DNA of 61,662 nucleotides, taken from contig SUSX01000002.1 in NCBI GenBank assembly GCA_015063195.1, positions 1-61,662 of the forward strand, written 5' to 3'. Below, piece by piece: positions 32,915 through 60,300 of this stretch. The DNA is from Thermoplasmata archaeon. GTDB taxonomy: Archaea; Thermoplasmatota; Thermoplasmata; Methanomassiliicoccales; Methanomethylophilaceae. The translations under genes and the position numbers were made by a program. Each line of letters opens with the position of its first letter. Positions within the stretch are counted from its first letter, which is position 1. The notes beneath the pieces are model-generated. The model had not been told where the DNA came from. It was given only the letters and a program-made list of their open reading frames with translations, and made no database searches.

Positions 32915-35551
32915 ATGTATCTGTCGAAATCCATCGATGAAATCTATTCTGAAGTCAAGGGATATGATGTCGCTCTCTGCAACGATGCTCCTTTGGCATT
33001 GGCATTGAACAACCGCATCGATGTTGCAAAATTAGGCAGATTTGCAGTCACTCCGAGGCAGATCGTAAGTGAGATGGCAATCAAACTTACAGGTAAGCCG
33101 ATTATCGATGACATCACTTTGGTGAAGAAAGTTTCCGATGAAACAGGATACAGTATCAAATATGTTCATGCCGAAATCGAGAACATTAAAAGAATGATGA
33201 GGTTCACATCCACTCCCGAGAAGTATCTCGGAAGGAGATCGAGGAATGTATTGGCATCCTACAGGCAGTACAACACCTTGGAGAACATAATGCAGAATTA
33301 CGATTTCACTCAGAACCGTTTCTTTGAAGGAAAATCGGTTGTGGTAGTCGGACTGAATCTTTTCGATAATTTGGATAAGAACATCCTTCCGAAGAATTTT
33401 GATGAGGTTGATATCACCTCATGGGATGAATACAGGATGGATGAGGTCAGGATAATCGGTAACAACAGACAGATAGCAAAATGTGCCGTCGATATTGTCA
33501 AAAGGACCAAACCGACAGATGTAGCTATTGTTTTCGACACCAGTGATACAATGGCAGATGCGGTACGTTCCGCACTGTACCGCAGTAAGGTTCCGTTCAT
33601 CAATTCACTGACCGTGAGGGATCTGAACAGTGTAAGGGATTTTTTGGAATTTCTTACATTTTCACTCACATTCGATACAATATCTGTCAGTAAGGTAAGG
33701 GAACTGATCTCCGCATACGGAGGAAAACTATTCTCGAAATATGATAAGTATAATCTCTCCGCATATCAGAAGACCGGAGATATCAAGGACGAAAGGACGT
33801 TAGAATTGCTTGGATTGATGGAAAACATCGTTGATTTTACATTCCACGAAGTCTGTATGAAGGCAGTTCCCGCCAAGGAAAGAGGAAGTATCGTTCTTCT
33901 GCTTTCACAGATGGAATGTTCCGATGAGTATGTTTCATCCGATATCGTTGACGATCTGATCTATGCGGTAAACAACATAGGCAATCTTACACACAACGAA
34001 CAGATTCCTCAGGAGGAGAAAGAGGGTGTTCTTCTCGTTGACTGTAAACGTTCGGTTTTCATCGACCGCCCTATTGTTGTGTATGCAGGCATGAGTACGG
34101 AATGGAACCGTGACCTGAAGGAGTTCGACTTCCTTTCATTGGGAGAGAAGATGGATGAGGATGAGAGAAACGATCACCGTTTCTCATCCCTGATGCAGCA
34201 GGGCTCTGTCAGATTCTATTTAGCAAACAGTTCAAAGAACGGTAAGAAGGCACAGCCGTGTATCCATTTCATAAGATCGGTGGAAGATTCAGACGGAATC
34301 TACGGTTTTGAAGATTTAGCTGATAAGGTAATAAACGGTCCGTGGGAGGTCGTTCTTGAGGACAGGGGATTCACTGCAGATTCCGCTGTCATAGAACAGA
34401 GTATTGAGATTCCCCGTCCGTTCTCACAGTCATCATACAATGATTTCATCAAATGTCCAAGGATGTATATGATCAACCGTTTGGTCAGTTCTCCTGATAA
34501 TACACATACATTGACAGGAAACATGATCCACTCATATGCGGAGTTCCGTGCTTCATATCCTGATCTTGCAAAAGAGAACGGCCCCGATTATTATGCAAAG
34601 ATGATAGCCGAGAGATGCGCAGCCCTTACATCAGTCAGTCTGACAGATGTGGAGCGTTCCAAGATTACTGCTGCCGTAAGGGCTGTAGACACATTCATGG
34701 AAAGGCGCGGAATAAAACCGTCAGAATATAAGTTAAGAGCAGGTTCGAAACAGGAAGTGAATATGTTCCTGGAACATCACGGGCTGAATGAGGTTGGGGA
34801 TTGTACAGAGGTACAGGTCACATCGGCACAGTCCCACATGACAGGTGTGTTGGATCTGATATGGAACGATATAATCTACGATTTCAAGACAGGCAGCATT
34901 AAGAAATCATCGGATTTGGAGAAGTCAACCACATTCAGCGATAAAGGTGAAGGCAAGGACTATCAGGCATTGTTCTACCTCACACTGATGGATAACAAGT
35001 TCCGCGGAAGGGTGGATGAAATGCAGTTCATATTCACTCTGAATGATTATTACATGAATATCATCGAAGGCGGAACCGGAAACATCGGAATTACAAGTGT
35101 AGTTCTCGTAGACGATCTCGGGGATGGAATTATCAGATTCCATGATGACATATACAGTCCTAAGACATATTCAGAAAAAGGCGTGGATGCTAAGGAAGTA
35201 ATTGACATCTGCAGAAGTTACGGTGAACCTGATGATTGGGCAGAGAATCCTTCAATCATAGCTGAACTGAGGGAGCGTTATAAATTGAGCAAGAAAGACG
35301 CCGAAGGGGCCTTGAAAAAGATAACCAAACTATATTCTAAAGGCAGATTCTCCAATGGCAAGTATCTTGTAATCACATACAGGGAATTAGAGGAATTCAA
35401 GGAGCGCATAGCTTCGGATTACGAGAGACTCAAAGAATATCAGCGGTTCGGATTCCCTGCAGAACCGACGATATCCTGTGATAAATGCTACTGCAGATCG
35501 ATTTGTACTGCAGAACCCCACATAGGAGGTGAAGAGAATGTCTCTGAATGA
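32915..35551 (+). CDS. AddB-like protein: degenerate helicase region plus C-terminal PD-(D/E)XK nuclease with Fe-S cysteines
   Basis: 878 aa; GVLDLIWNDIIYDFKTGS nuclease motif; FIKCPRMYM ... CDKCYCRSIC cysteine pattern; no Walker A seen; overlaps the downstream UvrD-type gene. Confidence 0.75.
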   Translation: MYLSKSIDEIYSEVKGYDVALCNDAPLALALNNRIDVAKLGRFAVTPRQIVSEMAIKLTGKPIIDDITLVKKVSDETGYSIKYVHAEIENIKRMMRFTSTPEKYLGRRSRNVLASYRQYNTLENIMQNYDFTQNRFFEGKSVVVVGLNLFDNLDKNILPKNFDEVDITSWDEYRMDEVRIIGNNRQIAKCAVDIVKRTKPTDVAIVFDTSDTMADAVRSALYRSKVPFINSLTVRDLNSVRDFLEFLTFSLTFDTISVSKVRELISAYGGKLFSKYDKYNLSAYQKTGDIKDERTLELLGLMENIVDFTFHEVCMKAVPAKERGSIVLLLSQMECSDEYVSSDIVDDLIYAVNNIGNLTHNEQIPQEEKEGVLLVDCKRSVFIDRPIVVYAGMSTEWNRDLKEFDFLSLGEKMDEDERNDHRFSSLMQQGSVRFYLANSSKNGKKAQPCIHFIRSVEDSDGIYGFEDLADKVINGPWEVVLEDRGFTADSAVIEQSIEIPRPFSQSSYNDFIKCPRMYMINRLVSSPDNTHTLTGNMIHSYAEFRASYPDLAKENGPDYYAKMIAERCAALTSVSLTDVERSKITAAVRAVDTFMERRGIKPSEYKLRAGSKQEVNMFLEHHGLNEVGDCTEVQVTSAQSHMTGVLDLIWNDIIYDFKTGSIKKSSDLEKSTTFSDKGEGKDYQALFYLTLMDNKFRGRVDEMQFIFTLNDYYMNIIEGGTGNIGITSVVLVDDLGDGIIRFHDDIYSPKTYSEKGVDAKEVIDICRSYGEPDDWAENPSIIAELRERYKLSKKDAEGALKKITKLYSKGRFSNGKYLVITYRELEEFKERIASDYERLKEYQRFGFPAEPTISCDKCYCRSICTAEPHIGGEENVSE

Positions 35552-38516
35552 TAATCAGAAACAGGTTGCCGAGACATTGAACGGCCTTCTGATGGTCGAT
35601 GCAGGGCCGGGAACCGGAAAGACACACACCATTGTTGAAAGGTATGCCAATCTCGTGAAGGACAAGGTTCCTGTAAGAGACATACTGATGGTCACATTCA
35701 CCAGAAATGCTGCTGAGGAGATGAAGGACCGTATCTCCAGAAGGATGAGGGATTATGCCAAAGAACTCCGTGACAGCGGTGACCGGTATGCAGCCGAGGA
35801 TATCGAAAAATCCATCTCCGATATCAGAACATCCACATTTGATTCATACTGCAGCAGGATCGTTTCAAATTCACCAGAGTTCGTTAGTGATTTCTTCGGA
35901 TTCAAGGAAACACTGTCAAGGAATGCAAGACTCATTGAGAATGAATCTATGAATGTCGATTATTTCACTTCATTCTTCAATTCATTCGTTAAGGAAAAAG
36001 GAAGGCTGTATGTCAAAGAAAATATCAACGTCCCTGCACTTTTTGCCGGAAATCCCGAGTCATTATTCAAACTGATCAGTAAATTGATGTCAAGAGGCAT
36101 CATTCCTTTGGCAGATTACGATTGGTTCGGAAACGGATTGGAAATCCTCATGGGCGATCAGGATGAGATGAGAAACATCCTCGATTCAATGTCCTTCAGT
36201 AACGGCATCTACGATCATATTAAAAAATTGTTAAAAGAGGACTATACTTTCCTTCCGAACATCTCACCGTTGACAGACAATGACGGAATGATAGAATTGG
36301 TTGTCAACGAGGATAGAAAACTTCTGATCTACTTCATCCATGACATTTACTACAGTTTCATCAAAAAATCCGTTTCCGATAATAGGCTGACATTCGGCCT
36401 TAATGCTTTGTTCGCATTCATCGTGTTGTATCAGGACCAATCAGCCAGAACATTCAATTCAGTAAGATATCTGATGATCGATGAGTTTCAGGATACCAAT
36501 GAGATGCAGCTGATGACCAGTCTTATGCTCCTCAATGAAGGCAATCTCTGTGTTGTCGGGGATTGGAAACAGGGAATTTACGGATTCAGGGACGTATCCA
36601 CTGACAATATCAGAAAATTCAGTAAAAGGATTGTCGAATTCGGTGACATACTGAACAATGACGGTGAAGAAAGGGTCCGTTTCGATACCCGTTCAAAAGT
36701 ATTCGCCATCGCATTACGTGAGAATTACAGAAGTTCGTCTTTGATACTGGAGAATGCTTTCAGATCGATGAACATCGCAGGTTCGGATCGTGAAGCAGAT
36801 ACAATGAATCTGATCAGCGATGATGATCTTGTTCTTCTGGATGCCAGGAACGATGATACATACGGCTGCAATACGGAATTCGAAGCATTCTATTCCGAGG
36901 ATGAAGAAGAATACAATGATATCGTCGACCGTGTGAAGGACTATCTGTTCAGCGGAAGATACAGTGTATGTTCAGAAGACGGACTGAGGGAGCCCAAACC
37001 CAGCGATATCGGAATTCTGTTCAGAACTATCAACGGATGTCTGAAAGCCTACAACGCCCTCAGGTCGGCAGGAATTCCTGCGTACCTTCAGGGTGACGAC
37101 ACAATCATGGCAACGAGGCCCGGAAAACTCGTTCTTGCATGGCTCAGATACGTAAACGATTTCCGTGACAAGAACGGACTGACGGCAATCCTGATTAATG
37201 AGGGATATACGATAACCCAGATCAGAAAGATACTCAAAGATAATCAGAACGTTCCTAAGTATATCGTCGATGAACGCAACTACCTTCTGAGCAAGAGAAA
37301 ACGTCCAAACGATCTGATAACATCCATCATGGCATTTCACAGAATCGGAGAATCCGATGATGCGGAAGCAGATATCGCACAGACAATCATCAACATAATA
37401 TCATTGTCATATTCCAATTCACTCGTCACAATCTCCGACATCATAAGACTAATAGAGAATGATTTGGAACTCAATACGAAGTATGCTGTTGAACAATCCG
37501 CAGACAAGAATGCGGTTATGATACAGACCATGCACAAGTCCAAAGGACTGGAATATCCGTTTGTGATAGTCGGAGGTCTGAACAAAGGTGTCATGCCTTC
37601 AACTCAGGGAGATAAGTCACCGTTTATCATCGATGACATATTTGGTTTCAGAGTATCCAAGGAATATCAGACCATAGTCGATGATACAGGAGTGGAGTTC
37701 TCAGGAATCCTTCCGTCCTGGAGATTCAAATTCATCAAAAGTCTGACAATCAGGAATTACGATGAAGAGCGCAGGCTCATGTTCGTTGCAATGTCAAGGG
37801 CGAGACAGTATCTCACACTCATGGGAAGAGGGGACAAACCGTCTATGTTCCTGAAACATTACAATCCCACGAATTACAAAAAATCCGGCATAGAAGTTGC
37901 CGATGTGGAAAGATTTAACGAGATGTCCGAAGTTCCAAAGATTCCTGAATATGTAGGAAGGAGGATGAACATCTCAGTTCACGACCTTACGGAGATGGAA
38001 CCGGAAATTGAGTGTGAATCAGGAGATTCTACAGATAAAGGTGACGGAAAAGAGTACGGAAATCTGGTTCACAGGATGGCGGAACAGATGGCATCCGGCA
38101 TGCCGTACGATGAACTGCCTGAGTCGGAGAATATCAGGGCAATACTCAATTCAATGAAGGATTCTGTAATTCTGACCGAGATTCATTGTTCATTACCTAT
38201 CAAGGATGTTACATTGAGGGGGATAATCGACGTCATTGGAGACTTCGGCGACCGTATTGAGATACATGATTACAAAACGGACAGGAATGAACGTTATCTC
38301 AACCAATACAAGCTTCAGATCAGCATCTATGCCCATGCCGTATCACAGGCCAGAGGCGTTCCTGTTACGTGCTACATAGATATGGTCTCCCTCGGACGCA
38401 GTATTAAGGTGGAGCCGTTGTCAATGGATGAAATAGAGAAAAAGGTTGAAAAATACCTTTTTAATATTCGTATTAGCAATGTTACGGACCTTAAATCTAA
38501 GAGAGTTAATCTTTAA
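35529..38516 (+). CDS. AddA-like UvrD/Rep superfamily helicase-nuclease
   Basis: 995 aa; GPGTGKTHTIVERYANLV, MIDEFQDTNEMQ, MIQTMHKSKGLEYPFVIV, C-terminal GIIDVIGDFGDRIEIHDYKTDRNERYLNQYKLQISIYAHAV. Start 35538 (MSLNDNQK) is also plausible. Confidence 0.88.
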   Translation: MKRMSLNDNQKQVAETLNGLLMVDAGPGTGKTHTIVERYANLVKDKVPVRDILMVTFTRNAAEEMKDRISRRMRDYAKELRDSGDRYAAEDIEKSISDIRTSTFDSYCSRIVSNSPEFVSDFFGFKETLSRNARLIENESMNVDYFTSFFNSFVKEKGRLYVKENINVPALFAGNPESLFKLISKLMSRGIIPLADYDWFGNGLEILMGDQDEMRNILDSMSFSNGIYDHIKKLLKEDYTFLPNISPLTDNDGMIELVVNEDRKLLIYFIHDIYYSFIKKSVSDNRLTFGLNALFAFIVLYQDQSARTFNSVRYLMIDEFQDTNEMQLMTSLMLLNEGNLCVVGDWKQGIYGFRDVSTDNIRKFSKRIVEFGDILNNDGEERVRFDTRSKVFAIALRENYRSSSLILENAFRSMNIAGSDREADTMNLISDDDLVLLDARNDDTYGCNTEFEAFYSEDEEEYNDIVDRVKDYLFSGRYSVCSEDGLREPKPSDIGILFRTINGCLKAYNALRSAGIPAYLQGDDTIMATRPGKLVLAWLRYVNDFRDKNGLTAILINEGYTITQIRKILKDNQNVPKYIVDERNYLLSKRKRPNDLITSIMAFHRIGESDDAEADIAQTIINIISLSYSNSLVTISDIIRLIENDLELNTKYAVEQSADKNAVMIQTMHKSKGLEYPFVIVGGLNKGVMPSTQGDKSPFIIDDIFGFRVSKEYQTIVDDTGVEFSGILPSWRFKFIKSLTIRNYDEERRLMFVAMSRARQYLTLMGRGDKPSMFLKHYNPTNYKKSGIEVADVERFNEMSEVPKIPEYVGRRMNISVHDLTEMEPEIECESGDSTDKGDGKEYGNLVHRMAEQMASGMPYDELPESENIRAILNSMKDSVILTEIHCSLPIKDVTLRGIIDVIGDFGDRIEIHDYKTDRNERYLNQYKLQISIYAHAVSQARGVPVTCYIDMVSLGRSIKVEPLSMDEIEKKVEKYLFNIRISNVTDLKSKRVNL

Positions 38517-38540: not shown

Positions 38541-41009
38541 ATGGTCTCTTTGAACGGTCTCACCACGGAGGAAGTCAATGAAAGGATTTCCAGAGGTGAA
38601 GTCAATCTTTCTTCTCAGAATGAAAGCCGTACTTACGGCGACATCATAAAGTCGAACGTATGTACAAAGTTCAATCTGATGCTCTTCGGTCTCGGTGCAG
38701 CGCTTGTCATATTGGGCGAGCCTCTTAATGCCCTTGCCGCTACGGGAGTCATCATAATGAACGTCCTCATCGCCACAGTACAGGAATGCAGGGCGAAAAG
38801 ACGTTTGGATAAGATTGCACTGCTTTTGAGACCGAAAGTCACCGTTGTACGTAACGGTGAGAAGATCGTAATAGATCAGAAAGAGATCGTTAAGGATGAT
38901 TTGATTTATCTTGAGGCCGGAGACCAGGCTTTAGTCGACGGATTCCTTGTCCATCAGGATTATCTGGAGATGGATGAATCACTTCTTACAGGTGAATCCA
39001 GGACCGTCAGGAAATCCGACGGTGACCGTATCTATTCAGGGTCGTTCTGTATTGCCGGAGACGGATATTTTCAGGTCGATGCATTCGGAGACGATTCGTT
39101 CGCTTCACAGATGCTCTCAAGTGCGAAAAAGCATGTCGTGAAGAAGACTCCTCTGCAGATGGAATGTCAGACCATCATCATGATGCTCATGGGAGTTGCG
39201 GTGCTGATGTCAGTCATCGCAACAATTGCAGCGATAATCTTAGGGGACACCCTCACGGACGTAGTAGTGATGGTTGCAGTCATCATTGAGATTGTACCTG
39301 TGGCTTTATTCCTGCTGATAGTTATCACGTATATGGTGGCCGCTGTACGTATGGCGGACAGCGGTGTACTTCTTCAGGTTTCTAGCTCTGTGGAATCCAT
39401 GAGTCATGTGGACACAGTCTGTATGGATAAGACAGGAACAATTACCACTAACAAACTGAAGTTCAACGAAGCGTTTTCACTCTCAGATGAACATTTCACC
39501 GAGTACGTCAGACTCTTCGTCGGAAATGTCGGGGGAAAGAACCGTACAATCAATGCATTGGAGGACCACTACGGTTCAGTCGAAGCGGAGACACTTGAGG
39601 AGATAAGGTTCAGTTCCGAACGCAAGTTCAGTGCAGTGAAGCTCAGATACGAAGGAAAGGAATATTCGATGTACATGGGGGCAGGTTCCGTCCTGTGCAA
39701 ACATATTCCTGATTCCGACGGAATTCTTGAAAAAATCAATGATTATTCATCCAGAGGACTTAGGACGGTCATGTTCGCAATGTCAGACGGCAAAGAGAAT
39801 ATGCTTTCCGAAAACTTTACACTGCCCGTACTCAAGCCTTTGGCCCTGTTCATTATCGAGGATGAGGTAAGGTCCGACTGCAGGGAGACAATCGATGTGT
39901 TCCTCAGGAACGGTATGGATCTCAAAGTCATATCCGGAGACGATCCCGTAACTGTCAATGCACTGTTTGATATCGCAAAGATTCCCGGTGAGAGGAAGAT
40001 CATTTCCGGGGATGAGTTAGAGAGATTGGAAGGTCAGGAACTGGTCGATACGATATTGGAAACCAACATCTTCGGAAGAGTCAAACCCGATCAGAAGGAA
40101 CTCATTATTAAGACTCTCAGGAAAGAGGGACGTTATGTCGCAATGGTCGGAGACGGTGTGAATGACGTCAAATCACTGAAACAGGCCAATGTGGGTGTAG
40201 CACTCGAGAGCGGAAGCGGAGCTGCAAGGTCAGTTGCCGACATGGTCCTTGTGAAGGACAACTTTGCAGCACTTCCTAAGGCATTGGTGGAGGGTAAGAG
40301 GACCGTTTCCGGAATGAGGGATATTCTCAAAATATACATTTCAAGGAACTTCACCTTGGCAATCATCATCGCATTGACTCTGATCGTACTCGGAACCATT
40401 CCGTTCAATCCTGTTCAGAACACATTCTATGCATTCTGTGCAGTGTCTGTGAGTTCGTTCTTCATGACTCTGTTCGCATCACCGTCGGACAACAACGACC
40501 TGATACTGCCTGCGGTTCTGAGGTATTCATTACCAACAGGATTGACTGTGTCACTGGTAGGTCTGTTGCTTTTCGCAGCCACTGAGTTCTTCGTGATGGA
40601 AGGGTTCATTGAATACGATGGATACAGCGCTGAAAGGATAGCAAGTGCCGTACTGATTATGTTCCTGTCCTTAAGCGGGGCATTGCAGCTGTTGGTCGTA
40701 AGGCCATGTTTCAAACTCTTCAGTCTTGACGGAGTCGTTTACAAGGATTACAGGCCATTGGCCCTGATGTGTCTGTTGATCCTGATAATATTCGCCGGAT
40801 GCAATCTGGAGTTTGTCACAATGCTGATGGATGTTCCCATTTTAAGTCCGATGACACAGGCAATAGTATGTGCATTTGCCGTCGGTTGGTTGGCTCTGCA
40901 ACATATTGTCATCCGTATTCCAAAACTGAATGTGGCGGAGAAATATGTCGATGAATGGTACCACAGGAGTCTTGACAGGCAGTGGGAAAAAGAGAGGAAC
41001 TCCCAGTAG
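38541..41009 (+). CDS. P-type cation-transporting ATPase
   Basis: 822 aa; LLTGESRTV, CMDKTGTITTNKL, VGDGVNDVKSLKQANVGVAL, multiple TMs. Confidence 0.92.
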   Translation: MVSLNGLTTEEVNERISRGEVNLSSQNESRTYGDIIKSNVCTKFNLMLFGLGAALVILGEPLNALAATGVIIMNVLIATVQECRAKRRLDKIALLLRPKVTVVRNGEKIVIDQKEIVKDDLIYLEAGDQALVDGFLVHQDYLEMDESLLTGESRTVRKSDGDRIYSGSFCIAGDGYFQVDAFGDDSFASQMLSSAKKHVVKKTPLQMECQTIIMMLMGVAVLMSVIATIAAIILGDTLTDVVVMVAVIIEIVPVALFLLIVITYMVAAVRMADSGVLLQVSSSVESMSHVDTVCMDKTGTITTNKLKFNEAFSLSDEHFTEYVRLFVGNVGGKNRTINALEDHYGSVEAETLEEIRFSSERKFSAVKLRYEGKEYSMYMGAGSVLCKHIPDSDGILEKINDYSSRGLRTVMFAMSDGKENMLSENFTLPVLKPLALFIIEDEVRSDCRETIDVFLRNGMDLKVISGDDPVTVNALFDIAKIPGERKIISGDELERLEGQELVDTILETNIFGRVKPDQKELIIKTLRKEGRYVAMVGDGVNDVKSLKQANVGVALESGSGAARSVADMVLVKDNFAALPKALVEGKRTVSGMRDILKIYISRNFTLAIIIALTLIVLGTIPFNPVQNTFYAFCAVSVSSFFMTLFASPSDNNDLILPAVLRYSLPTGLTVSLVGLLLFAATEFFVMEGFIEYDGYSAERIASAVLIMFLSLSGALQLLVVRPCFKLFSLDGVVYKDYRPLALMCLLILIIFAGCNLEFVTMLMDVPILSPMTQAIVCAFAVGWLALQHIVIRIPKLNVAEKYVDEWYHRSLDRQWEKERNSQ

Positions 41010-41257: not shown

Positions 41258-41596
41258 TCACTGTTTTTTCAGATATATCTCAGCCGCATTATCGAATAAT
41301 GCTGCAAGTTTGGGATCGTCAGGTTCCGTGATTCCCAATTCTTTGATTTTGGATGATATGAATTTACAGACATCCTCATCATGAATCATCAGACACGGGC
41401 TGCATGACCAGACGTCTCCGAGTTTCTTCGTTTTGATCATCTCACCGAATCTTGTGTCGTGACACGGATAAAAGGGGCAATAGCAGAAGGTACAGTCCTG
41501 ACCGTCATAATGGCACGGATAGTATTCACAGGATCTGTTCGGACCGATCCAACCCGCATCGATCTCCTCTTTGACCTTCTTCCTTATGCAGTCCAT
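41258..41596 (-). CDS. Cysteine-rich small domain protein
   Basis: 112 aa; CEYYPCHYDGQDCTFCYCPFYPCHDTRFG...WSCSPCLMIHDEDVC. Confidence 0.85.
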   Translation of the reverse strand: MDCIRKKVKEEIDAGWIGPNRSCEYYPCHYDGQDCTFCYCPFYPCHDTRFGEMIKTKKLGDVWSCSPCLMIHDEDVCKFISSKIKELGITEPDDPKLAALFDNAAEIYLKKQ

Positions 41597-42878: not shown

Positions 42879-44072
42879 ATGGACATTCCTGTTAAATTCA
42901 TTCATTGTGCAGATCTGCACTTAGGAAGTAAATTCGTCGGAGTGCTGTCCGACCGTCCTGAATTGGGAAAGATGCTGATATCGTCAACATTCGAAGCTTT
43001 GGACAGAATCGTTGACAAGGCGAAGGAAGAGAATGTCAATTTCGTACTGTTTTCCGGTGATGTTTTCGACGAAAGTAATGAGACCCCATTCACCAGGAAC
43101 TATTTCGCCGAATCACTGAAGAGGATCGGCGTTCCCTGTTACATCGTGTACGGAAACCATGATTTCAGAAGGAAATGGGAGGATTCCATTCCTCTGCCGG
43201 ATAACGCATTCGTATTCCCCACGGAGATAACTTCCGTTTACTATCCGAAGGAATCACCTGAAGTAGAGATCATCGGAGTGAGTTATTCAAAAGCCAATTC
43301 AGCCAAGAATCATGCCTTGGATTTTATGGGTTCGGAGGATCTGTACACAATCGGAATGATGCACTGCGATGTGGACATTCCAAACAGTCCGTATTCTCCC
43401 TGTTCTACTGCAGATCTCAAAGGAAGGAATGTGGACTATTGGGCATTGGGTCACGTTCACAAAGGTGGAATACTGTCAAAAGAACCCTATATAGTATATC
43501 CCGGTAACACACAGGGAAGAAATCCCAAAGAGATCGGGGAAAGAGGTGCATACATAGTCACCGTTTCCAACGGACGTGTCATTAAGATGCAGTTCTTCAA
43601 TACGCAGTCGATTGTATGGTCGGATGCTGAGGTTTCCATAACGGGTGTAAAGAACATCACCGATCTGATGGATCAGATATCCTCTAAAGTTACTAAAGGA
43701 TCGATAGTACGTGTAACTGTCACAGGTACGGGAATTCTGGACAAAAACATCAGAATGAACCGTTCCGATATAATCGAACTGATAGAGGCACGTACCGGAT
43801 GCTTCTGTTCATCGATGGATGTCAAATCCTCACCCGAAGTTGATTTCGAGAAAAGGATTGAAGGTTCGGATTTCATTGCAGCCGTTTTGGAATACGGGAA
43901 GAGACTTTCTATCCTCGATAAAGGAGAACTGATAAACCTCATCTGTAAGACCGGTGGATCGGCATATCTCCGCAGCTATTATGAGGAGATGTCTGCCGAT
44001 GAATTACGTCAGATTATCGACGATTCCGTGAAATACATCATCGAAAAACTTTCGGAGGTTGATGTGGAATGA
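42879..44072 (+). CDS. Mre11/SbcD/YhaO-like metallophosphoesterase nuclease
   Basis: 397 aa; FIHCADLHLGSKF, LFSGDVFDESN, YGNHDFRRKW, ALGHVHKGGI, YPGNTQGRNPKE. Confidence 0.92.
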   Translation: MDIPVKFIHCADLHLGSKFVGVLSDRPELGKMLISSTFEALDRIVDKAKEENVNFVLFSGDVFDESNETPFTRNYFAESLKRIGVPCYIVYGNHDFRRKWEDSIPLPDNAFVFPTEITSVYYPKESPEVEIIGVSYSKANSAKNHALDFMGSEDLYTIGMMHCDVDIPNSPYSPCSTADLKGRNVDYWALGHVHKGGILSKEPYIVYPGNTQGRNPKEIGERGAYIVTVSNGRVIKMQFFNTQSIVWSDAEVSITGVKNITDLMDQISSKVTKGSIVRVTVTGTGILDKNIRMNRSDIIELIEARTGCFCSSMDVKSSPEVDFEKRIEGSDFIAAVLEYGKRLSILDKGELINLICKTGGSAYLRSYYEEMSADELRQIIDDSVKYIIEKLSEVDVE

Positions 44073-46450
44073 AGATCAGACGTGTCAATATTGCTTCATT
44101 CGGACAAATAAACGGTTTCTTTGCCGATTTTTCAGAGAAGAATATGAATGTGGTGTACGGAGACAACGAGGCAGGTAAGACCACAATCTCCGAATTCATC
44201 AGAACCACTCTGTTTCCGGGAAAACCCTCGAAATATCCAGCTCCCAGGAAATCCGATACAGGAATGATAGAAGTTGAGATGGAGAACGGGGAGATCAAAG
44301 TCCTTGAAAGGGAATACAAGACCGTGAAAGAGAAGTACGGCAGGACTACGCCTGCCGAAGAAGTACACATGGACCATGAGACGTACAGGTCCATATCTTC
44401 TCTTGATTTGGAATTCCTCGGTAACAGCAAGATCATCTCCAGCGGCGAATACAGGAAGAAGTTCCTGACAGTACCCGGGGGAGAACACATCCCTGCTGTT
44501 TCAAAATCAATAGATTCACGTATGGATGAGCTTCTGAACAAGGAGCGTATCAGCGACCGTAAGATCATAGGAAAACATCTGAAGAACGTCAAATCCATCG
44601 ATGAGGAACTCAATGCGACCAAGGAAAACCTTCACAAATACGACGCATTGGCATTGGAGAAGAGCAAGATCATCGAGAGTCTTTCTGATGCTAAGGAACT
44701 TCAGAACCAGGCCAAGATCGAAGGCGGACGTTTGATGGTCATGGATGCCCTCAGGGGTCAGATAGATACTCTTGACAGACTCAAGAAGGAGAGAGAAAAT
44801 CTCAGTTATGCGGATGAACTCAGCGAAGAGGACATCACACTGTATGAGACACTTTCATCCAACTTAAGGGTGTACGACGGTCTTCTCGACGATTCCGAGG
44901 ATACGGTTGACGGATTCATGTCCGCTTCCGAAGCCAGGGAATACATGAACATTGCCGATAAGATCGAGGCCATATGGGAGAAACGTAACAGGGTCGATAC
45001 CCTTCACGGAGCAATGACGGATCTTTCCGCCGCTATCAACGATATCGAAGGTAAGATCGATATAATCCTTGAAAAGGCGAATCTCACCGAGGATCAGGCA
45101 TCATCGATAATCGTTGATGATGAGCTGAAGGAAAGGCTGTCCCGTCCCAGAGAAGGCAGACAGATGCCGCAGATTGTAGAAAAGTTCATGGATTTCAGAA
45201 TGAGAATTCCTGTAATCGCAATAGGTGCGTTACTGATTGTATCATTCATGATTCTTCATAATCCGATACCTCCGATAGCAGGAGGAATACTCATTGCACT
45301 GTCACTCATATATCCTAAAGTAATCAGTTCAATCTTTGACAAGAAGGATGTAGATCTTGACATCATGCTGATCACTAAAGGGTTCTCTGCAGGACTGCCT
45401 AAAGACGATGTCATCAGGAAGATGCATGCTATCGAAAAGATTGATGAACTTCTTGCCCGCAGAGCGGATGCAGAGGAAAGGCTTGCAAGAGCAACAGAGG
45501 AATATGTTGATCTTAAAGAGGAAATTTCAGAGACAACACTTCTGTTCGGAATCGATACCGGTTCCTTAAGAATCGATATCAACGACCTATATTCACAATA
45601 CATTGCAGCGAAAAACGTCATGGATGCATTCAATGAGACCGACGGAATATCAGAGAAGAGGTTTTCCACCGAAAAGAAGTTGGAGGAACTCTTTGCAAAG
45701 TACGGTTCCGAATCGAACTTCAAGAAACTCATGGCCGACAAGGATCTGCTGAAGAAACTCGATCTGAAGATAGAGTCTGTGGAAGAATCTATCGAAGTCG
45801 ATGTGGAGGTCTCTGTTGCTCAGGAGAGCGCTGTACCCGTAAAGGATGACCGCATCGATCCCGATTCCATAGTTGACGACCTCAACGTCCGTTTGGGTGA
45901 GATTACAGCGAATATGGACGCAATCATCAATGACAACACCGTCGGTGAACTGATGTACACCAAGGAATCGGAGACACAGAAGATCAGAGAGTATGCCAAG
46001 GAATGGGCAATGCTCTCACTGTCGGATACGATAATCGCCGAATGCTGTGCTAAGTTCTATTCCGATCTCCAGCCCACTGTCGTACGTACTGCCAATAGGT
46101 ATCTCGAGCTCATGACCGACGGAAGGTACAGGCTTTCCAATGATCCGAGAGTAAGTGAGATAAGCATCGAGGACAGGAAAGGAGTTAAGATTGCAGGTGA
46201 GTGGAGCAGCGGATTGGCCGATCAGGTGTATTTGGCCGTGAAGATGGCCATTGCCAAGGAACTCGGTTCCGAGAAACTGCCCTTCATCATTGACGACGTC
46301 CTTGTAAGATTCGACGCAAGAAGGAAACAGGGTGCATGCCGTGCGTTGGCTGAATTCGCTATGGATCAGCAGACCATCATTTTCACCTGTGATTCCACCG
46401 TTCTGTCGATGTTCAAGATGATGGATGACGTCAGAATAATAACACTGTAG
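44069..46450 (+). CDS. YhaN-like SMC/Rad50-type ATPase with central membrane segments
   Basis: 793 aa; VVYGDNEAGKTTISEFIRTTLF; central RIPVIAIGALLIVSFMILHNPIPPIAGGILIALSLIYPKVI; C-terminal WSSGLADQVYLAVKMAIAKELGSEKLPFIIDDVLVRFD. Confidence 0.88.
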   Translation: MKIRRVNIASFGQINGFFADFSEKNMNVVYGDNEAGKTTISEFIRTTLFPGKPSKYPAPRKSDTGMIEVEMENGEIKVLEREYKTVKEKYGRTTPAEEVHMDHETYRSISSLDLEFLGNSKIISSGEYRKKFLTVPGGEHIPAVSKSIDSRMDELLNKERISDRKIIGKHLKNVKSIDEELNATKENLHKYDALALEKSKIIESLSDAKELQNQAKIEGGRLMVMDALRGQIDTLDRLKKERENLSYADELSEEDITLYETLSSNLRVYDGLLDDSEDTVDGFMSASEAREYMNIADKIEAIWEKRNRVDTLHGAMTDLSAAINDIEGKIDIILEKANLTEDQASSIIVDDELKERLSRPREGRQMPQIVEKFMDFRMRIPVIAIGALLIVSFMILHNPIPPIAGGILIALSLIYPKVISSIFDKKDVDLDIMLITKGFSAGLPKDDVIRKMHAIEKIDELLARRADAEERLARATEEYVDLKEEISETTLLFGIDTGSLRIDINDLYSQYIAAKNVMDAFNETDGISEKRFSTEKKLEELFAKYGSESNFKKLMADKDLLKKLDLKIESVEESIEVDVEVSVAQESAVPVKDDRIDPDSIVDDLNVRLGEITANMDAIINDNTVGELMYTKESETQKIREYAKEWAMLSLSDTIIAECCAKFYSDLQPTVVRTANRYLELMTDGRYRLSNDPRVSEISIEDRKGVKIAGEWSSGLADQVYLAVKMAIAKELGSEKLPFIIDDVLVRFDARRKQGACRALAEFAMDQQTIIFTCDSTVLSMFKMMDDVRIITL

Positions 46451-46472
46451 GGGTCCACCCCTATTTTTTTTT
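46448..46472 (+). terminator. Intrinsic-like terminator of the yhaON-like operon
   Basis: TAGGGGT-CC-ACCCCTA followed by TTTTTTTTT; begins at the stop codon. Confidence 0.8.
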
Positions 46473-46544
46473 CTAAAATCACAGTACATTGGCGGGACGT
46501 CATTTGTGACGAAAAATTCACTGATATGTGTGATTTCTGCAAAA

Positions 46545-46818
46545 GCTTTATAATATTAACAATAGATTATGGAATTGAGGGTAGACGTACTATCTCCCTT
46601 GATTCACTGATTCACCATCACAATCACACTATAGGGCCCGATGTGCCCTGAGGTCCGATAATGACCTATATATGCTAGATGCAAGGAAGCATTAAAAAAC
46701 AGGACGGGAAGATGTCCTTATGCATAGATTACCGTTTAACCAGCGGTAGTAATAGAATAGAAGGATCAAAGAGAAGAGATAGTTGACGTTATACCCCTAA
46801 AACCCAAGAGGGGTTAGA
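46545..46818 (+). ncRNA. Candidate structured leader RNA/ncRNA upstream of dnaG (unknown class)
   Basis: TATA-like CTTTATAATATT near 46546-46557, then consecutive short hairpins (see findings) and a terminal hairpin pairing with the dnaG SD; no ORF of note in the segment. Confidence 0.5.
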
Positions 46819-48411
46819 ATGAACAGCATAGATCCTAACACAACAAAATATCTTGTTAAGGCTAAGCTCACTGCAGACGGAGTAGTCGAGAAGCCTGATG
46901 TTGTAGGCGCAATTTTCGGTCAGACAGAAGGTCTCCTTGGAGAGGAATTGGATCTCAGGGACCTCCAGAAATCCGGTAGAATCGGACGCATTGAAGTCGA
47001 AGTAACATCCAAGGGCGGAAAGTCCGACGGTCTCATTTACGTATCCTCAAGTTTGGATCAGGTTGAGACAGCAATTCTTGCATCCGCATTGGAGACAGTA
47101 GATCGCATCGGTCCCTGCAAAGCAGGAATCAGGGTTCTCGGAATCGAAGACGTACGTGTAACCAAGAGAGAACTCGTCGTCGAGAGGGCAAAGGAACTTC
47201 TCAATGAGCTCATGAAACAGAGCAAGGGAGCAGGAACCGACATCACAGAGACCATCAGGCAGAGCATTCAGGTCGATGAGATCACTTCATACGGAAAGGA
47301 CCGCTGCCCTGCAGGACCCAACGTCGATGATTCCGAAGCAATCATCATCGTAGAGGGAAGGTCAGACGTTATCAACCTGCTCAAAGCAGGAATCAAGAAT
47401 GCAATCGCAGTCGAGGGAACAAACATTCCCGAGACAGTTCAGCAACTTACTAAAGAGAAGGTTTCCACGGCATTCGTCGACGGAGACAGAGGAGGAGAAC
47501 TCATTCTCAGGGAGCTTTTCCAGGTAGCAGATATCGACTTCGTCGCAAGGGCACCCCGTGCACACGAGGTTGAGGAACTTTCAGCAAAGCAGTTGGTTAA
47601 GTGTCTCCGCAACAAGATCCCCGGCGATCAGTACATGGAGATGAACGGATTCGCAGTCCACGAGGAAGCATCCGAACCTGTACCCGTACCTGTGCCCGCA
47701 CCCGCAGTCCACGAGGTTGAGCACGAGGAAGTCAAGAAGGAGAGGAAGCCCAGAAGAGAGAGGCAGGAGAGACCCGAGCGTTCACTCCGCGGAACCGATG
47801 ATGACGAGCCCGTCAGGGAGAGGGAGCTCAGGAAAGGAAGGTTCAACAGTGATGCTGCAGAGAAATTCAAGAAGAAGGAAGTTCCCGCAGTACCCGTAGA
47901 GGTTCCCGCACCCGTTGAGGAAGAGAAACCCGAGGAGCCTGTAGAGGTCAAGGAAGAGGAACCTGCCGCAGTCGTCGCAGAACCCGTAGTCGCTACCACC
48001 AGGAAAGAGAGAAGAAACAGAGAGAAAGAATCCCACACCGAAAGGCCTGCAAAGGCAGAGAGGCCCAAGAGGGATCTCAGGTCATCAAGGAAACCTGCAA
48101 CAGACAAGGTGCTTTCACCCGAGCAGGAGACATACCGTGACTATCTCCGTGAGCTTTCAGCAACACACAACGCAAGAATCCTTAACAGCAGCAGGGAGAT
48201 CATGAATGAGCTTCCTGTCAAGAATTTGGTAGATACACTCAGAGCAAACTCAGAGGGAGTCGCAGCGATCGTATTCGACGGAATCATATCACAGAGGATC
48301 GTCGATGTCGCATCCGAGAAGAACATTCCAACAGTCGTCGGTGTCAAGAAGGGTAACATCCCCAAGATGCCTGCAGGAATCACCCTCTGGACAAAGGAAG
48401 ATCTGAACTGA
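46819..48411 (+). CDS. dnaG: Archaeal DnaG-type primase (TOPRIM) with a long charged low-complexity insert
   Basis: 530 aa; NTTKYLVKAKLTADGVVEKPDVVGAIFGQTEGLLGEELDLRDLQKSGRIGRIEVE; TOPRIM EAIIIVEGRSDVINLLKAGIKNAIAVEGTNIP. Confidence 0.95.
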   Translation: MNSIDPNTTKYLVKAKLTADGVVEKPDVVGAIFGQTEGLLGEELDLRDLQKSGRIGRIEVEVTSKGGKSDGLIYVSSSLDQVETAILASALETVDRIGPCKAGIRVLGIEDVRVTKRELVVERAKELLNELMKQSKGAGTDITETIRQSIQVDEITSYGKDRCPAGPNVDDSEAIIIVEGRSDVINLLKAGIKNAIAVEGTNIPETVQQLTKEKVSTAFVDGDRGGELILRELFQVADIDFVARAPRAHEVEELSAKQLVKCLRNKIPGDQYMEMNGFAVHEEASEPVPVPVPAPAVHEVEHEEVKKERKPRRERQERPERSLRGTDDDEPVRERELRKGRFNSDAAEKFKKKEVPAVPVEVPAPVEEEKPEEPVEVKEEEPAAVVAEPVVATTRKERRNREKESHTERPAKAERPKRDLRSSRKPATDKVLSPEQETYRDYLRELSATHNARILNSSREIMNELPVKNLVDTLRANSEGVAAIVFDGIISQRIVDVASEKNIPTVVGVKKGNIPKMPAGITLWTKEDLN

Positions 48412-49934
48412 TGACAGAAATGAAGACAGTTAAGACATGGTCCGATGTCGAAACATTGGCCAGTACAGCGGAGATCGAAATACCTAAGGATCCTTTGGAC
48501 AGGGTATTGGGCCAGGAAGAGGCAATCGAACTGGCAAAGATCGCAGCACTTCAGAGGAGGCATCTTCTCCTCGTCGGACCCCCGGGTACCGGTAAGTCGA
48601 TGATTGCACGTGCTATCTCACTCCAGCTTCCCAAACCGGATGTGGAGATCCGTGTAGCACACAATCCAGAGAATCCTGAGAGGCCGTTCCTTCAGATTAT
48701 TGAGGAGGAACAGGTACACAAGGAGACGGGATACAAGGCAAGTGCAGCCGGTAAACTCATCGACCCCGAGAAGGCACCCACGAACGTAGCCGAGAAATTG
48801 GGATACAGGTGCAGGTACTGCAGTAAGTATTCCTCCTATACGGACCGCACATGTCCGTTCTGCGGAAAATCCAAATCGGAGATGCCTCAGAACGGCGGAA
48901 TGTTCCAATTGAACGAAATGATCGGTACAGTGTTCGAGGCCATTCCCGGAATGGGTCAGAAACCGAAGGAGCGTGTTGTCACATCAAGGATGCTCGCAGA
49001 CGGAAGTGAGGAAACCGTCGTCTTCGAGTGTGCAGGTGACAAGATTCGTGTATTGGACCAAAAAGCAATGGAAAAGAGGAGAGAGGTTGAGAAGAGTTCG
49101 AACCAGAAAGTTCTGGTGAAACTTGACCGTTCTCCCTTCGTACTTGCCACGGGAGCATCCGAGACGGAGCTTCTGGGTGACGTAAGGCACGATCCCTACG
49201 GGGGTCATGCCCAACTCGGAACCCCTGCATACGACAGGGTCGTGGCCGGTGCGATACACGAAGCCCATGAAGGAGTACTCTTTGTGGATGAGATCTCACA
49301 TCTAGGTTCTTTACAGAGATTCATCCTCACTGCTATGCAGGACAAGAAGTTCCCCATCATGGGCAGAAACCCCCAGAGTGCTGGAGCAAGTGTGAAGGTA
49401 GAGGATGTGCCATGTGACTTCATACTTGTTGCAGCATGTAACATCCAGGATCTTGAGAATATATTGTCCCCTCTCAGGTCCAGGATCATCGGTGGGGGTT
49501 ATGAGGTGTTGGTGGATGTATCTATGCCCGATACTCCTGAGAACAGGGCAAAGTACGCTCAGTTCGTAGCTCAGGAAGTGATGATGGACGGACACATCCC
49601 GCATGCCAACATACCGGCCGTCGAAGCTATCATAGCGGAAGGAAAGGCCAGGGCAAAGACAGACGGAATGAACGGTGCACTCACTCTCAGGCTGAGGGAA
49701 CTCGGAGGTCTCATCAGGGCCGCCGGAGATATTGCAGTCATGGAGGGTGCAGAACTGATCACAGAGGATCACATTAAACGTGCAATCAAACGTTCCAAGC
49801 CCGCAGAAGATCAGATCAAGGCGAGATACGGTTCGTACACCAAAGGATTGTCAAAGGATATTTCCTCAGCACAGAAGGAGAAATCACAGTACTACATGGA
49901 GAACGAACACGTCGGCGATCAGATGTTCAACTGA
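48411..49934 (+). CDS. LonB-like AAA+ ATPase lacking the protease domain
   Basis: 507 aa; VLGQEEAIELAKIAALQRRHLLLVGPPGTGKSMIARAI; CRYCSKYSSYTDRTCPFCG insert; EGVLFVDEISHLGSLQRFILTAMQDKKFPIMGRNPQSAGA; ends QYYMENEHVGDQMFN. Confidence 0.85.
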   Translation: MTEMKTVKTWSDVETLASTAEIEIPKDPLDRVLGQEEAIELAKIAALQRRHLLLVGPPGTGKSMIARAISLQLPKPDVEIRVAHNPENPERPFLQIIEEEQVHKETGYKASAAGKLIDPEKAPTNVAEKLGYRCRYCSKYSSYTDRTCPFCGKSKSEMPQNGGMFQLNEMIGTVFEAIPGMGQKPKERVVTSRMLADGSEETVVFECAGDKIRVLDQKAMEKRREVEKSSNQKVLVKLDRSPFVLATGASETELLGDVRHDPYGGHAQLGTPAYDRVVAGAIHEAHEGVLFVDEISHLGSLQRFILTAMQDKKFPIMGRNPQSAGASVKVEDVPCDFILVAACNIQDLENILSPLRSRIIGGGYEVLVDVSMPDTPENRAKYAQFVAQEVMMDGHIPHANIPAVEAIIAEGKARAKTDGMNGALTLRLRELGGLIRAAGDIAVMEGAELITEDHIKRAIKRSKPAEDQIKARYGSYTKGLSKDISSAQKEKSQYYMENEHVGDQMFN

Positions 49935-57343: not shown

Positions 57344-60300
57344 TCAGGATTTGTCGGATGCTTCATTCGCCTTAAGGTTCCTGTGTGCGACGGTCATCAT
57401 GAGTTTGATCCTGTTCAGCTGATTTACCCTGCTAGCTCCAGGGTCGTAATCTATGGCTACGACATTTGCAGTGCTGCAGTAATCTCTGATGGGTCTGAAC
57501 ACCCCTTTACCGACAACGTGATTCGGTAAACATGCGAAAGGCTGCATACATACGATGTTCTCGACACCGTCATCGATGAACTCCATCATCTCTCCGACGA
57601 GATACCAACCTTCACCGCACTGTTCTCCGAGAGATGTGATCTTCTCAGCCTTTTCCGCAATCTCATCAATATGGGCGGCAGGTTTGAATCTCTTACTCTT
57701 TCTGAGTGCTTCGGTCATCGGTTTCCTGTAGCTGTAGATAAGTCTCAATCCGAATCTGCTGAACACATAGCTTTTGTATGAGCCGCTCAGCTGTCTGAAA
57801 TTGAATTCAGGATTTTTCAGACAGTATGTGAAGAAGTCTGCCAATTCAGGGACTACCGCTTCACCGCCTTCACTTTCGATGACATCGACGATGTTGTTGT
57901 TAGCATCCGGGTGGTATTTGACAAGGATCTCACCTACGACTCCTACTCTGGGTTTCTTCAGATCCTCGTGAATCGGAAGGCTGTCGTATTCCTCTACAAT
58001 CTGAGCGATGTTCTGTGAGAATTCTTTCCAGTCTTTGTTCTCGATGTTTTGGAATAATCTCTCTTTCCAATTCTCGTAGATGGCCTCGGCGCTGCCCTTC
58101 TCTATCTCATAGGGTCTGGTGGCGTTGATGAGTTTCATGAAGAGGTCGCCGTAGATGACTGAAAATACTGCTCTCTTCAGAAGTTTAAGATCGAATGAGA
58201 ATCCTGAGTTCTTCTCAAGATTTCCGCCTGCATTTACGGAGATGACGGGGACATGTTCCATTCCTATCTCCTTCAACGCTTTCCTCAGCATCGAGATGTA
58301 GTTGCTTGCTCTGCATCCTCCGCCGGTCTGTGACATCAGTAATGCAGTACGGTTCAGGTCGTACTTTCCGGACTGAAGTGCACTTATAACCTGTCCCAAT
58401 GAGATTATGGAAGGATAACAGGCGTCGTTGTTGATGTATTTCAATCCTGTTTCGATGGCATTCCGATCAACATGAGGGAGAAGTTCCACATTGTAGCCGT
58501 TAAGTTCCAATGCAACCTTCAGCATTTCAAAATGAATAGGGGCCATCTGAGGCATGAGGAGTGTGTATTTTTCCTTCATCTCCTCGGTGAATTCAGCTCT
58601 TGTGAAATCTTCGACCTCTTTTACACTCCTGATGGAATTGTCCTTACGTTCCTCTATCGCTGCTTTGAGGGATCTAAGTCTTATTCTGATGGCTCCGGTG
58701 TTGGATCCTTCGTCTATCTTGATGACAGTGTAGAGTTTGTTGTGTTGGTTGAGAATCTCTTCTACCTGATCCGTAGTGACCGCATCCAATCCGCAGCCGA
58801 ACGAATTGAGTTGGATGAGGTCCACATCATCACGTGAACCGCAGAACGATGCAGCATCGTACATCCTGTTGTGATATGTCCACTGATTCCAAACTCTGAT
58901 TTTAGGGAGATTTCCCAATTTCATAACAGAGGATTCGGGGAATATGTAGAATCCGTAGGATTCGATGATCTTATCGATTCCGTGATTGATTTCAGGATCC
59001 ATATGGTAAGGTCTTCCTGCAAGGACGATTCCGTGTGCATTTTCCCTCTCCACTCTTTCAAGAAGTTCCGATGCTTTGGATTCTATGTCCTCTTTGAATC
59101 TGAGGTCTTCCGTTCTTCCCTTGTCTACAGCGGCAGAAACTTCACGCTGTGTTACTCCGAAATGGGATAATGCATCCTTCAGACGTTTCTTCAGTCTCTT
59201 GTCGTCATTATACGGAAGGAAAGGATGGATGAAATCGACATTATTGGATTTCAGGAGAGGGGCCATATTTCCGGAGATGACTTCGGGATACATGGCAACG
59301 ATAGGGCAGTTGAAATCGTTGTTAGCCTTTTCGCTTTCCCTGAATTCATGATTGATTGACGGATAGAATATGTGTTTAACTCCGTTCTCCACCAGCCATT
59401 TGATATGTCCGTGCACAAGTTTTGCAGGATAACAGGCCGTGTCTGACGGGATAGTATCTATTCCCGATTCGTACATCTTCTTGTTGGAATAGGGTGAAAG
59501 AACTACTCTGAATCCCAATTCGGTGAATACGGTGAACCAGAACGGGTAGTTTTCATAAATGTTCAGAACTCTTGGAATTCCGATCGTTCCTCTTTTTGCT
59601 TCATTTTCTTCAAGAGGAACGTAATCGAACACTCTTTTTCCTTTGTATTCGAACAGATTCCTGTCCGAATCTTCAGATCTGACGATTCCTTCTCCTCTTT
59701 CACAGCGGTTTCCTGTGATGAGTTTGCTTCCGTCATTGAATATGCATATGGTCAGCTGACAATGGTTTTCACAGCCGTTGCACTTGCTGTGTCTCGTCTC
59801 CATCGTGAATTCGTCCAACTGTTCTTTTGACAGTATGGTTGATCTGTATTCGGAATCCAGATTGCTGTAAAGATTCCTGCTTACAAGGGCTGCTCCGTAT
59901 GCTCCCATGTTACCTGCAATGTCGGGTCTGATGACCTCTTTACCGAGGACCAGTTCCAAACTTCTGAGAACAGCGTCGTTGAGGAATGTTCCTCCCTGTA
60001 CGACTATGTAATCGCCTGCGTCCTCCGGATTTCTGAGTTTTATTACCTTGTAAAGTGAATTCTTGATTACGGAATATGCCAATCCTGCGGATATATCATC
60101 GACACCGGCACCTTCTTTTTGTGACTGCTTAACCATGGAATTCATGAAGACTGTACATCTTGTTCCGAGGTCAACGGGGTGTTCGGCGAATATCGCTTTC
60201 TGAGCGAATTCCTCTGTTGTTATTCCCAGTGATTTAGCGTATGTTTCTATGAATGAACCGCAACCGGAGGAGCATGCTTCGTTCAGGACTATGGTGTTAA

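Follow-up and report, generated by a model that had tools for sequence, protein, structure and literature searches.

How an archaeon prepares broken DNA ends for recombination is the question raised by two overlapping genes in a 61,662-nt stretch of DNA (hereafter, the window) from a Thermoplasmata archaeon of the family Methanomethylophilaceae (order Methanomassiliicoccales), whose genome measures 1.19 Mb and is 85% complete. A sequence-only reading had taken these genes for an AddAB-like helicase–nuclease pair of the bacterial kind, had contrasted them with the HerA–NurA and Mre11–Rad50 proteins on which archaea generally rely, and had offered two origins, lateral acquisition or a divergent archaeal complex for processing double-strand breaks. 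Here, we report an analysis of both proteins by sequence comparison, structural modelling and phylogeny, together with a survey of resection genes across the order. We consider it probable that the pair encodes a divergent archaeal AddAB heterodimer, which would serve as the resident resection machine of Methanomethylophilaceae in place of HerA–Mre11–Rad50.

Gene pair and genomic context

Two overlapping genes had been described at 32,915–38,516 of the window, and both open reading frames lie exactly there, on the plus strand. The addB-like gene (32,915–35,551) has an ATG start and encodes 878 amino acids, and the addA-like gene (35,529–38,516) has a GTG start and encodes 995. The end of the former and the start of the latter share 23 bp, an overlap that suggests co-translation. 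The pairing is not due to chance, as almost all family genomes carry it. A P-type ATPase gene identified by Pfam (38,541–41,009, plus strand) is its conserved neighbour, and most family loci that we examined preserve the order addB–addA–P-type ATPase.

Further along the plus strand, the window encodes a YhaO/YhaN-like pair (42,879–46,450), consisting of an SbcD/YhaO-like metallophosphoesterase (42,879–44,072), which occurs in most family genomes and often near addBA, and a YhaN/SbcC-like AAA ATPase (44,069–46,450; AAA_23/AAA_27 in Pfam), whose gene overlaps that of its partner. Downstream of this pair lie genes for a DnaG-like primase of archaeal type and for an AAA ATPase (window 42,879–49,934; also L081, L083 and L084), and the cluster that they form together is conserved in several genomes of the family as well as in G008, which belongs to another family. 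In many family genomes, a cysteine-rich zf-like protein (41,258–41,596, minus strand, in the window) is encoded close to the YhaO-like gene as a divergent neighbour, and in some (L061–L063) it is part of longer open reading frames. At the contig end, a very large protein of 1,412 amino acids, of the acyl-CoA dehydratase activase type, is encoded at 57,344–61,582 (minus strand).

The AddB-like subunit

The sole Pfam domain in the AddB-like protein is a C-terminal PDDEXK_1 nuclease (residues 503–864, E = 5.9e-12). As the sequence-only reading had it, the protein carries a PD-(D/E)XK nuclease motif, GVLDLIWNDIIYDFKTGS, and no Walker A motif is seen anywhere in its 878 residues. In an alignment of 23 homologues reaching down to about 22% identity (alignment A1), the nuclease residues H539, D647, D656, K658, Q684 and Y688 are invariant; the motif IYDFKTGSIK (34,874–34,903, plus strand) contains D656 and K658, and here T659 and G660 are invariant as well. 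The reading had further proposed an Fe–S nuclease with cysteines in the pattern C...CxxCxCxxxC. Four of these, C514, C855, C858 and C864, are indeed invariant in the 23 homologues, but C860 is not conserved, so that the actual motif is C...C-x2-C-x5-C. The C-terminal segment CDKCYCRSIC (35,477–35,506, plus strand) holds C855-x2-C858-x5-C864 with the spacing found in an alignment of bacterial AddB (A4). The strict CxxCx5C pattern occurs in 22 of the 23 AddB of the window's kind, and in the one exception (L067) the four cysteines are all present and a single residue is inserted. Given these invariant residues, AddB should hold an Fe–S cluster.

Searches of PDB sequences with phmmer and hmmsearch returned no useful matches for AddB, so structure comparison was needed; no AddB model matched the protein either. 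In a Foldseek search of the PDB with an AlphaFold (AF2) model (pLDDT 83.5), the first match was Bacillus subtilis AddB (4cej_B, E = 1.2e-14), followed by AdnA, UvrD and RecC. The model thus supports an inactive helicase-like fold with a C-terminal nuclease, the architecture that the sequence-only reading had predicted. For profile comparison, we assembled ten bacterial AddB proteins (A4) from annotated records and genome contigs; all are database sequences, and a B. subtilis AddB sequence that served as bait in the search for annotated bacterial AddB was kept out of the analysis itself. These ten proteins have the nuclease residues in the same order as archaeal AddB and share its cysteine spacing, which is nearly invariant among them. 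The archaeal AddB profile (A1) matched the bacterial one with a probability of 97.9 (E = 5.4e-13, 624 columns), and a mostly haloarchaeal AddB set did so with a probability of 97.6.

The AddA-like subunit

The second protein had been described as an AddA-like UvrD helicase with its own C-terminal nuclease (motif IEIHDYKTD), a description that the data bear out. Pfam identifies UvrD-helicase (E = 9.3e-43), UvrD_C (E = 3.6e-25) and a C-terminal PDDEXK nuclease of RecB type. In 20 homologues, GPGTGKT (Walker A) and DEFQDT are invariant, leaving Walker A and B intact, as are the nuclease residues H848, E884, D901, D914, K916, Q930 and Y934. From such invariant residues in both subunits, the two nucleases and the one motor should be active. 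The AlphaFold model (pLDDT 83.1) matched B. subtilis AddA first (4cej_A, E = 1.8e-35), then RecB, UvrD and AdnB. The score against the curated NCBIfam addA model (TIGR02785), 157.7 bits, is below the cut-off of 707.65. Whole-chain Foldseek TM-scores of the AddB and AddA models are moderate (0.45–0.59) and rmsd values large, so that the models make the fold class secure and leave the placement of domains unsure.

In one genus of the family (g10), the AddA gene contains TAG codons in frame, and the sequence before and after them is conserved (L059:10250–13156, L048:9230–12118 and L047:8112–11069); in L059 and L048, the codon falls at about the same site within a variable loop. Pyrrolysine read-through or a split gene is possible. 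Several AddB genes of the family also contain one TAG.

Distribution of resection genes in Methanomassiliicoccales

We surveyed 147 genomes of the order, 102 from the window's family (G000 and G024–G124) and 45 from others. AddB, whose presence was counted by hand from a per-genome table, occurs in 98 of the 102 family genomes and in one of the 45 outside (G008). In the sister families, genes for a HerA-type ATPase, Mre11 and Rad50 are clustered. Outside the family, 41 of the 45 genomes have an archaeal Mre11 that scores above 100 bits; of the 102 family genomes none has one, and their best matches to the Mre11 query reach at most 49 bits and are YhaO- or SbcD-like. Rad50 gives the same counts (41/45 outside, 0/102 inside), and the HerA paralogue linked to Mre11–Rad50 was detected only outside the family. 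Eight single-contig family genomes that are 98–99% complete (G031, G034, G035, G037, G072, G073, G076 and G078) agree. The contrast with HerA and Mre11–Rad50 drawn by the sequence-only reading is therefore stronger than it had claimed, the set being missing precisely in the family that bears AddAB.

Some genomes depart from this pattern. G008 (family f4) has AddAB and Mre11–Rad50 together, and G083 and G091, which are fairly complete family genomes, show neither AddB nor archaeal Mre11. G458 and G462 (f21) possess AddAB and yielded no match to the archaeal Mre11 query, which may miss more distant Mre11.

A look at the window's genome for herA and nurA elsewhere, as the sequence-only reading had suggested, gave a divided answer: a second HerA-type ATPase paralogue (DUF87; L072:6325–7884, in G000:C43) is present, as it is in some genera of the family, and no NurA accompanying it was detected. 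RadA is present in this genome. Across the order, Pfam NurA has two matches only, both beside HerA-like genes in seemingly mobile islands, so that NurA is not scoreable in the order, even in the sister families. Such NurA–HerA-like pairs were seen in two family genomes, in seemingly mobile or defence islands (L042:7284–9935 and L043:1878–4530). The HAS-barrel (PF09378) was rejected as a HerA marker, because the weak matches that it gives within the family resemble subunits of the V-ATPase. Outside the order, Haloferax volcanii has been stated to have neither HerA nor NurA (PMC7776575). Where HerA–Mre11–Rad50 is missing, the family has the YhaO/YhaN-like pair instead. Several family genomes, including the window's own, also contain a bacterial-type SbcC of about 1,040 amino acids with an SbcD-like gene (L078:6611–10947, L079:2794–6998, L080:2767–7007 and L194:1–3914, the last in the window's genome), and these genes are possibly a bacterial import.

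The reciprocal pattern of AddAB and HerA–Mre11–Rad50 is suggestive of replacement and is not statistical proof, since the 102 genomes come from a single family, and thus one branch, on which the exchange may have happened just once.

Phylogeny and origin of the pair

In a homologue scan of 84,980 species, in which bacteria were represented by a sample, the archaeal matches listed ranged from E = 4e-114 to 9e-150, followed by a gap, and the best bacterial match listed had E = 6e-37. Haloarchaeal plasmids carry the pair too, with an AddA that is 30% identical over 97% of the length (E down to 3e-117) and an AddB about 25% identical over nearly full length (E down to 1e-52). In a tree of 51 helicases, 26 archaeal AddA form one clade (100/100), drawn from the window's own family, Halobacteria and a few other Thermoplasmatota; Candidatus Methanoplasma and a Methanomassiliicoccaceae MAG are among its named members, and the analysis also recovered a contig of Candidatus Methanomethylophilaceae. 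A 100/99 branch separates this clade from bacterial AddA and RecB, and a topology that unites archaeal with bacterial AddA is rejected by the AU test (P = 5e-5, or 0.015 with other bacterial forms added).

The archaeal clade lies on the UvrD/PcrA side of that split, and archaeal AddA is shorter than its bacterial counterpart (about 950 against about 1,200 amino acids), both of which would fit a UvrD–nuclease pair assembled independently and converged on the AddAB architecture. We regard such convergence as unlikely. AddA and AddB are the first fold matches of the two subunits, an AddB partner together with the exact C...CxxCx5C Fe–S motif is unlikely to have arisen twice, and long branches (the stem of the archaeal clade, at 1.22, and those of the bacterial proteins) may pull the clade to its deep position in the tree.

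The haloarchaeal relatives bear on a second alternative, that the pair is chiefly a nuclease for antiviral defence or plasmid degradation and not a break-resection enzyme. They are often plasmid-borne, two of them stand directly beside BREX-5 genes, and AddB is sporadic elsewhere in Thermoplasmatota. Within the window's family, by contrast, the pair is near-universal and its context stable, unlike usual accessory defence genes; BREX neighbours were found at just two of the haloarchaeal loci checked, and PADLOC has no specific model for the pair, returning only generic UvrD/GajB and Cas4 matches. A chiefly defensive role is thus doubtful in our view, and it would not be exclusive in any case, because bacterial AddAB serves both break resection and defence.

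Further features of the haloarchaeal loci were recorded. The BREX-5 genes lie on two plasmids (L088:11887–20820 and L090:1–7853), and the few loci concerned led us to reject a general BREX-5 linkage. In Natronorubrum bangense (L089:3106–7799), the AddB–AddA pair follows genes for an SbcC-like ATPase and for a hypothetical protein. Haloarchaeal AddB (L088–L090 and L113–L126, alignment A5) keeps the nuclease residues and is missing the Fe–S cysteines, and the CxxCx5C motif occurs in none of 13 haloarchaeal and f21 AddB. As bacterial AddB also has the motif, its loss in the haloarchaeal branch would be the simplest reading.

That a bacterial AddAB operon was recently acquired, for example from gut Firmicutes, and kept as an ordinary bacterial enzyme is most improbable: bacterial AddAB has a like gene order, folds and Fe–S cysteine spacing, the family has bacterial-looking SbcCD and includes gut organisms, but the single archaeal AddA clade outside bacterial AddA and RecB, the AU test, the distance of the best listed bacterial match from the archaeal ones and the sub-threshold addA score all stand against it.

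Of the two origins first proposed, a divergent archaeal complex is therefore the better one, and recent acquisition from bacteria gives way to an AddA clade that is shared with Halobacteria and runs through the whole family. Judged from these sequences, the archaeal clade, the family-wide inheritance and the sporadic distribution elsewhere identify the pair as an archaeal branch of its own, which was passed on vertically within the window's family and, in Halobacteria, probably spread by transfer. Whether this is a deep, archaeal-only AddAB branch, older than the families that carry it, which took over resection fully in one family and feeds RadA there, we judge to be evenly balanced.

Proposed mechanism and significance

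The reading of the pair as a resident archaeal AddAB has support in the gene pair itself, the folds of its products, the intact catalytic and Fe–S residues, the conservation throughout the family and the reciprocal absence of Mre11–Rad50–HerA. From it, we infer the following course of events. AddA and AddB would assemble into a heterodimer, in which AddA would act as an ATP-driven SF1 motor that carries one nuclease; by family, this motor would run in the 3′–5′ direction. AddB would be a helicase-shaped, ATPase-dead scaffold, whose Fe–S-stapled nuclease would cut the other strand. Loaded on a double-strand break, the enzymatically active complex would unwind and degrade the DNA, leaving a 3′ tail to be handed over to RadA, a eukaryote-like recombinase, and would in this way functionally replace the archaeal set. 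The YhaO/YhaN-like and SbcCD-like proteins probably act alongside AddAB in the family.

The most interesting part of these results is the reciprocal absence of HerA–Mre11–Rad50. If the proposal is true, an archaeal family with a divergent AddAB and without the archaeal resection set amounts to a natural replacement experiment, which makes it testable whether an AddAB-type enzyme can pass 3′ tails to RadA. Haloarchaeal AddB, with its nuclease residues and without the Fe–S cysteines, would likewise be a natural test of the cluster's role.

Comparison with known systems

The archaeal HerA–NurA system with Mre11–Rad50 has the same proposed job, resection of the 5′ strand for RadA, but consists of unrelated proteins, and its Mre11–Rad50-linked HerA cluster, which the sister families have, is missing from the window's family. 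Escherichia coli RecBCD has the RecB-type motor and nuclease in common with the archaeal pair, and AddB bears a weak resemblance to RecC (E about 3e-8); the archaeal system, however, has two genes and two nucleases, and no recD-like open reading frame lies beside addBA in the window. Mycobacterial AdnAB (PDB 6ppr) is also a two-subunit helicase–nuclease with a nuclease in each subunit, but it scores below AddAB for both archaeal subunits in the fold search, and its P-loop motor in both subunits has no counterpart in archaeal AddB, which lacks a Walker A motif or P-loop. Closer is the haloarchaeal AddB–AddA-like pair, known from plasmid and chromosomal contigs (for example, Halorhabdus tiamatea, L088), which shares the gene order and the clade and differs in its AddB without Fe–S cysteines, its frequent location on plasmids and its occasional position beside BREX-5. 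In the open-access literature, outside which most subscription papers lie, we found no account of an archaeal AddAB.

Bacterial AddAB (B. subtilis; PDB 4cej and 3u44) likewise has adjacent addB and addA genes, a single UvrD-type motor in AddA, an ATPase-dead AddB with a helicase fold and a nuclease in both subunits; it shares the AddB Fe–S motif C...C-x2-C-x5-C and is the best fold match for both archaeal subunits. In contrast to the bacterial enzyme, the archaeal subunits are shorter and only about 17% (AddA) and 12% (AddB) identical to it, AddA falls under the curated AddA cut-off and sits on a separate deep branch of the tree, AddB has no trace of a Walker A motif, and the host is an archaeon with RadA. 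As far as sequences and models tell, the pair thus has every structural hallmark of AddAB that we examined; since it also fails the curated AddA cut-off and falls outside bacterial AddA, it is best described as a variant of AddAB that does not belong among the bacterial AddA enzymes.
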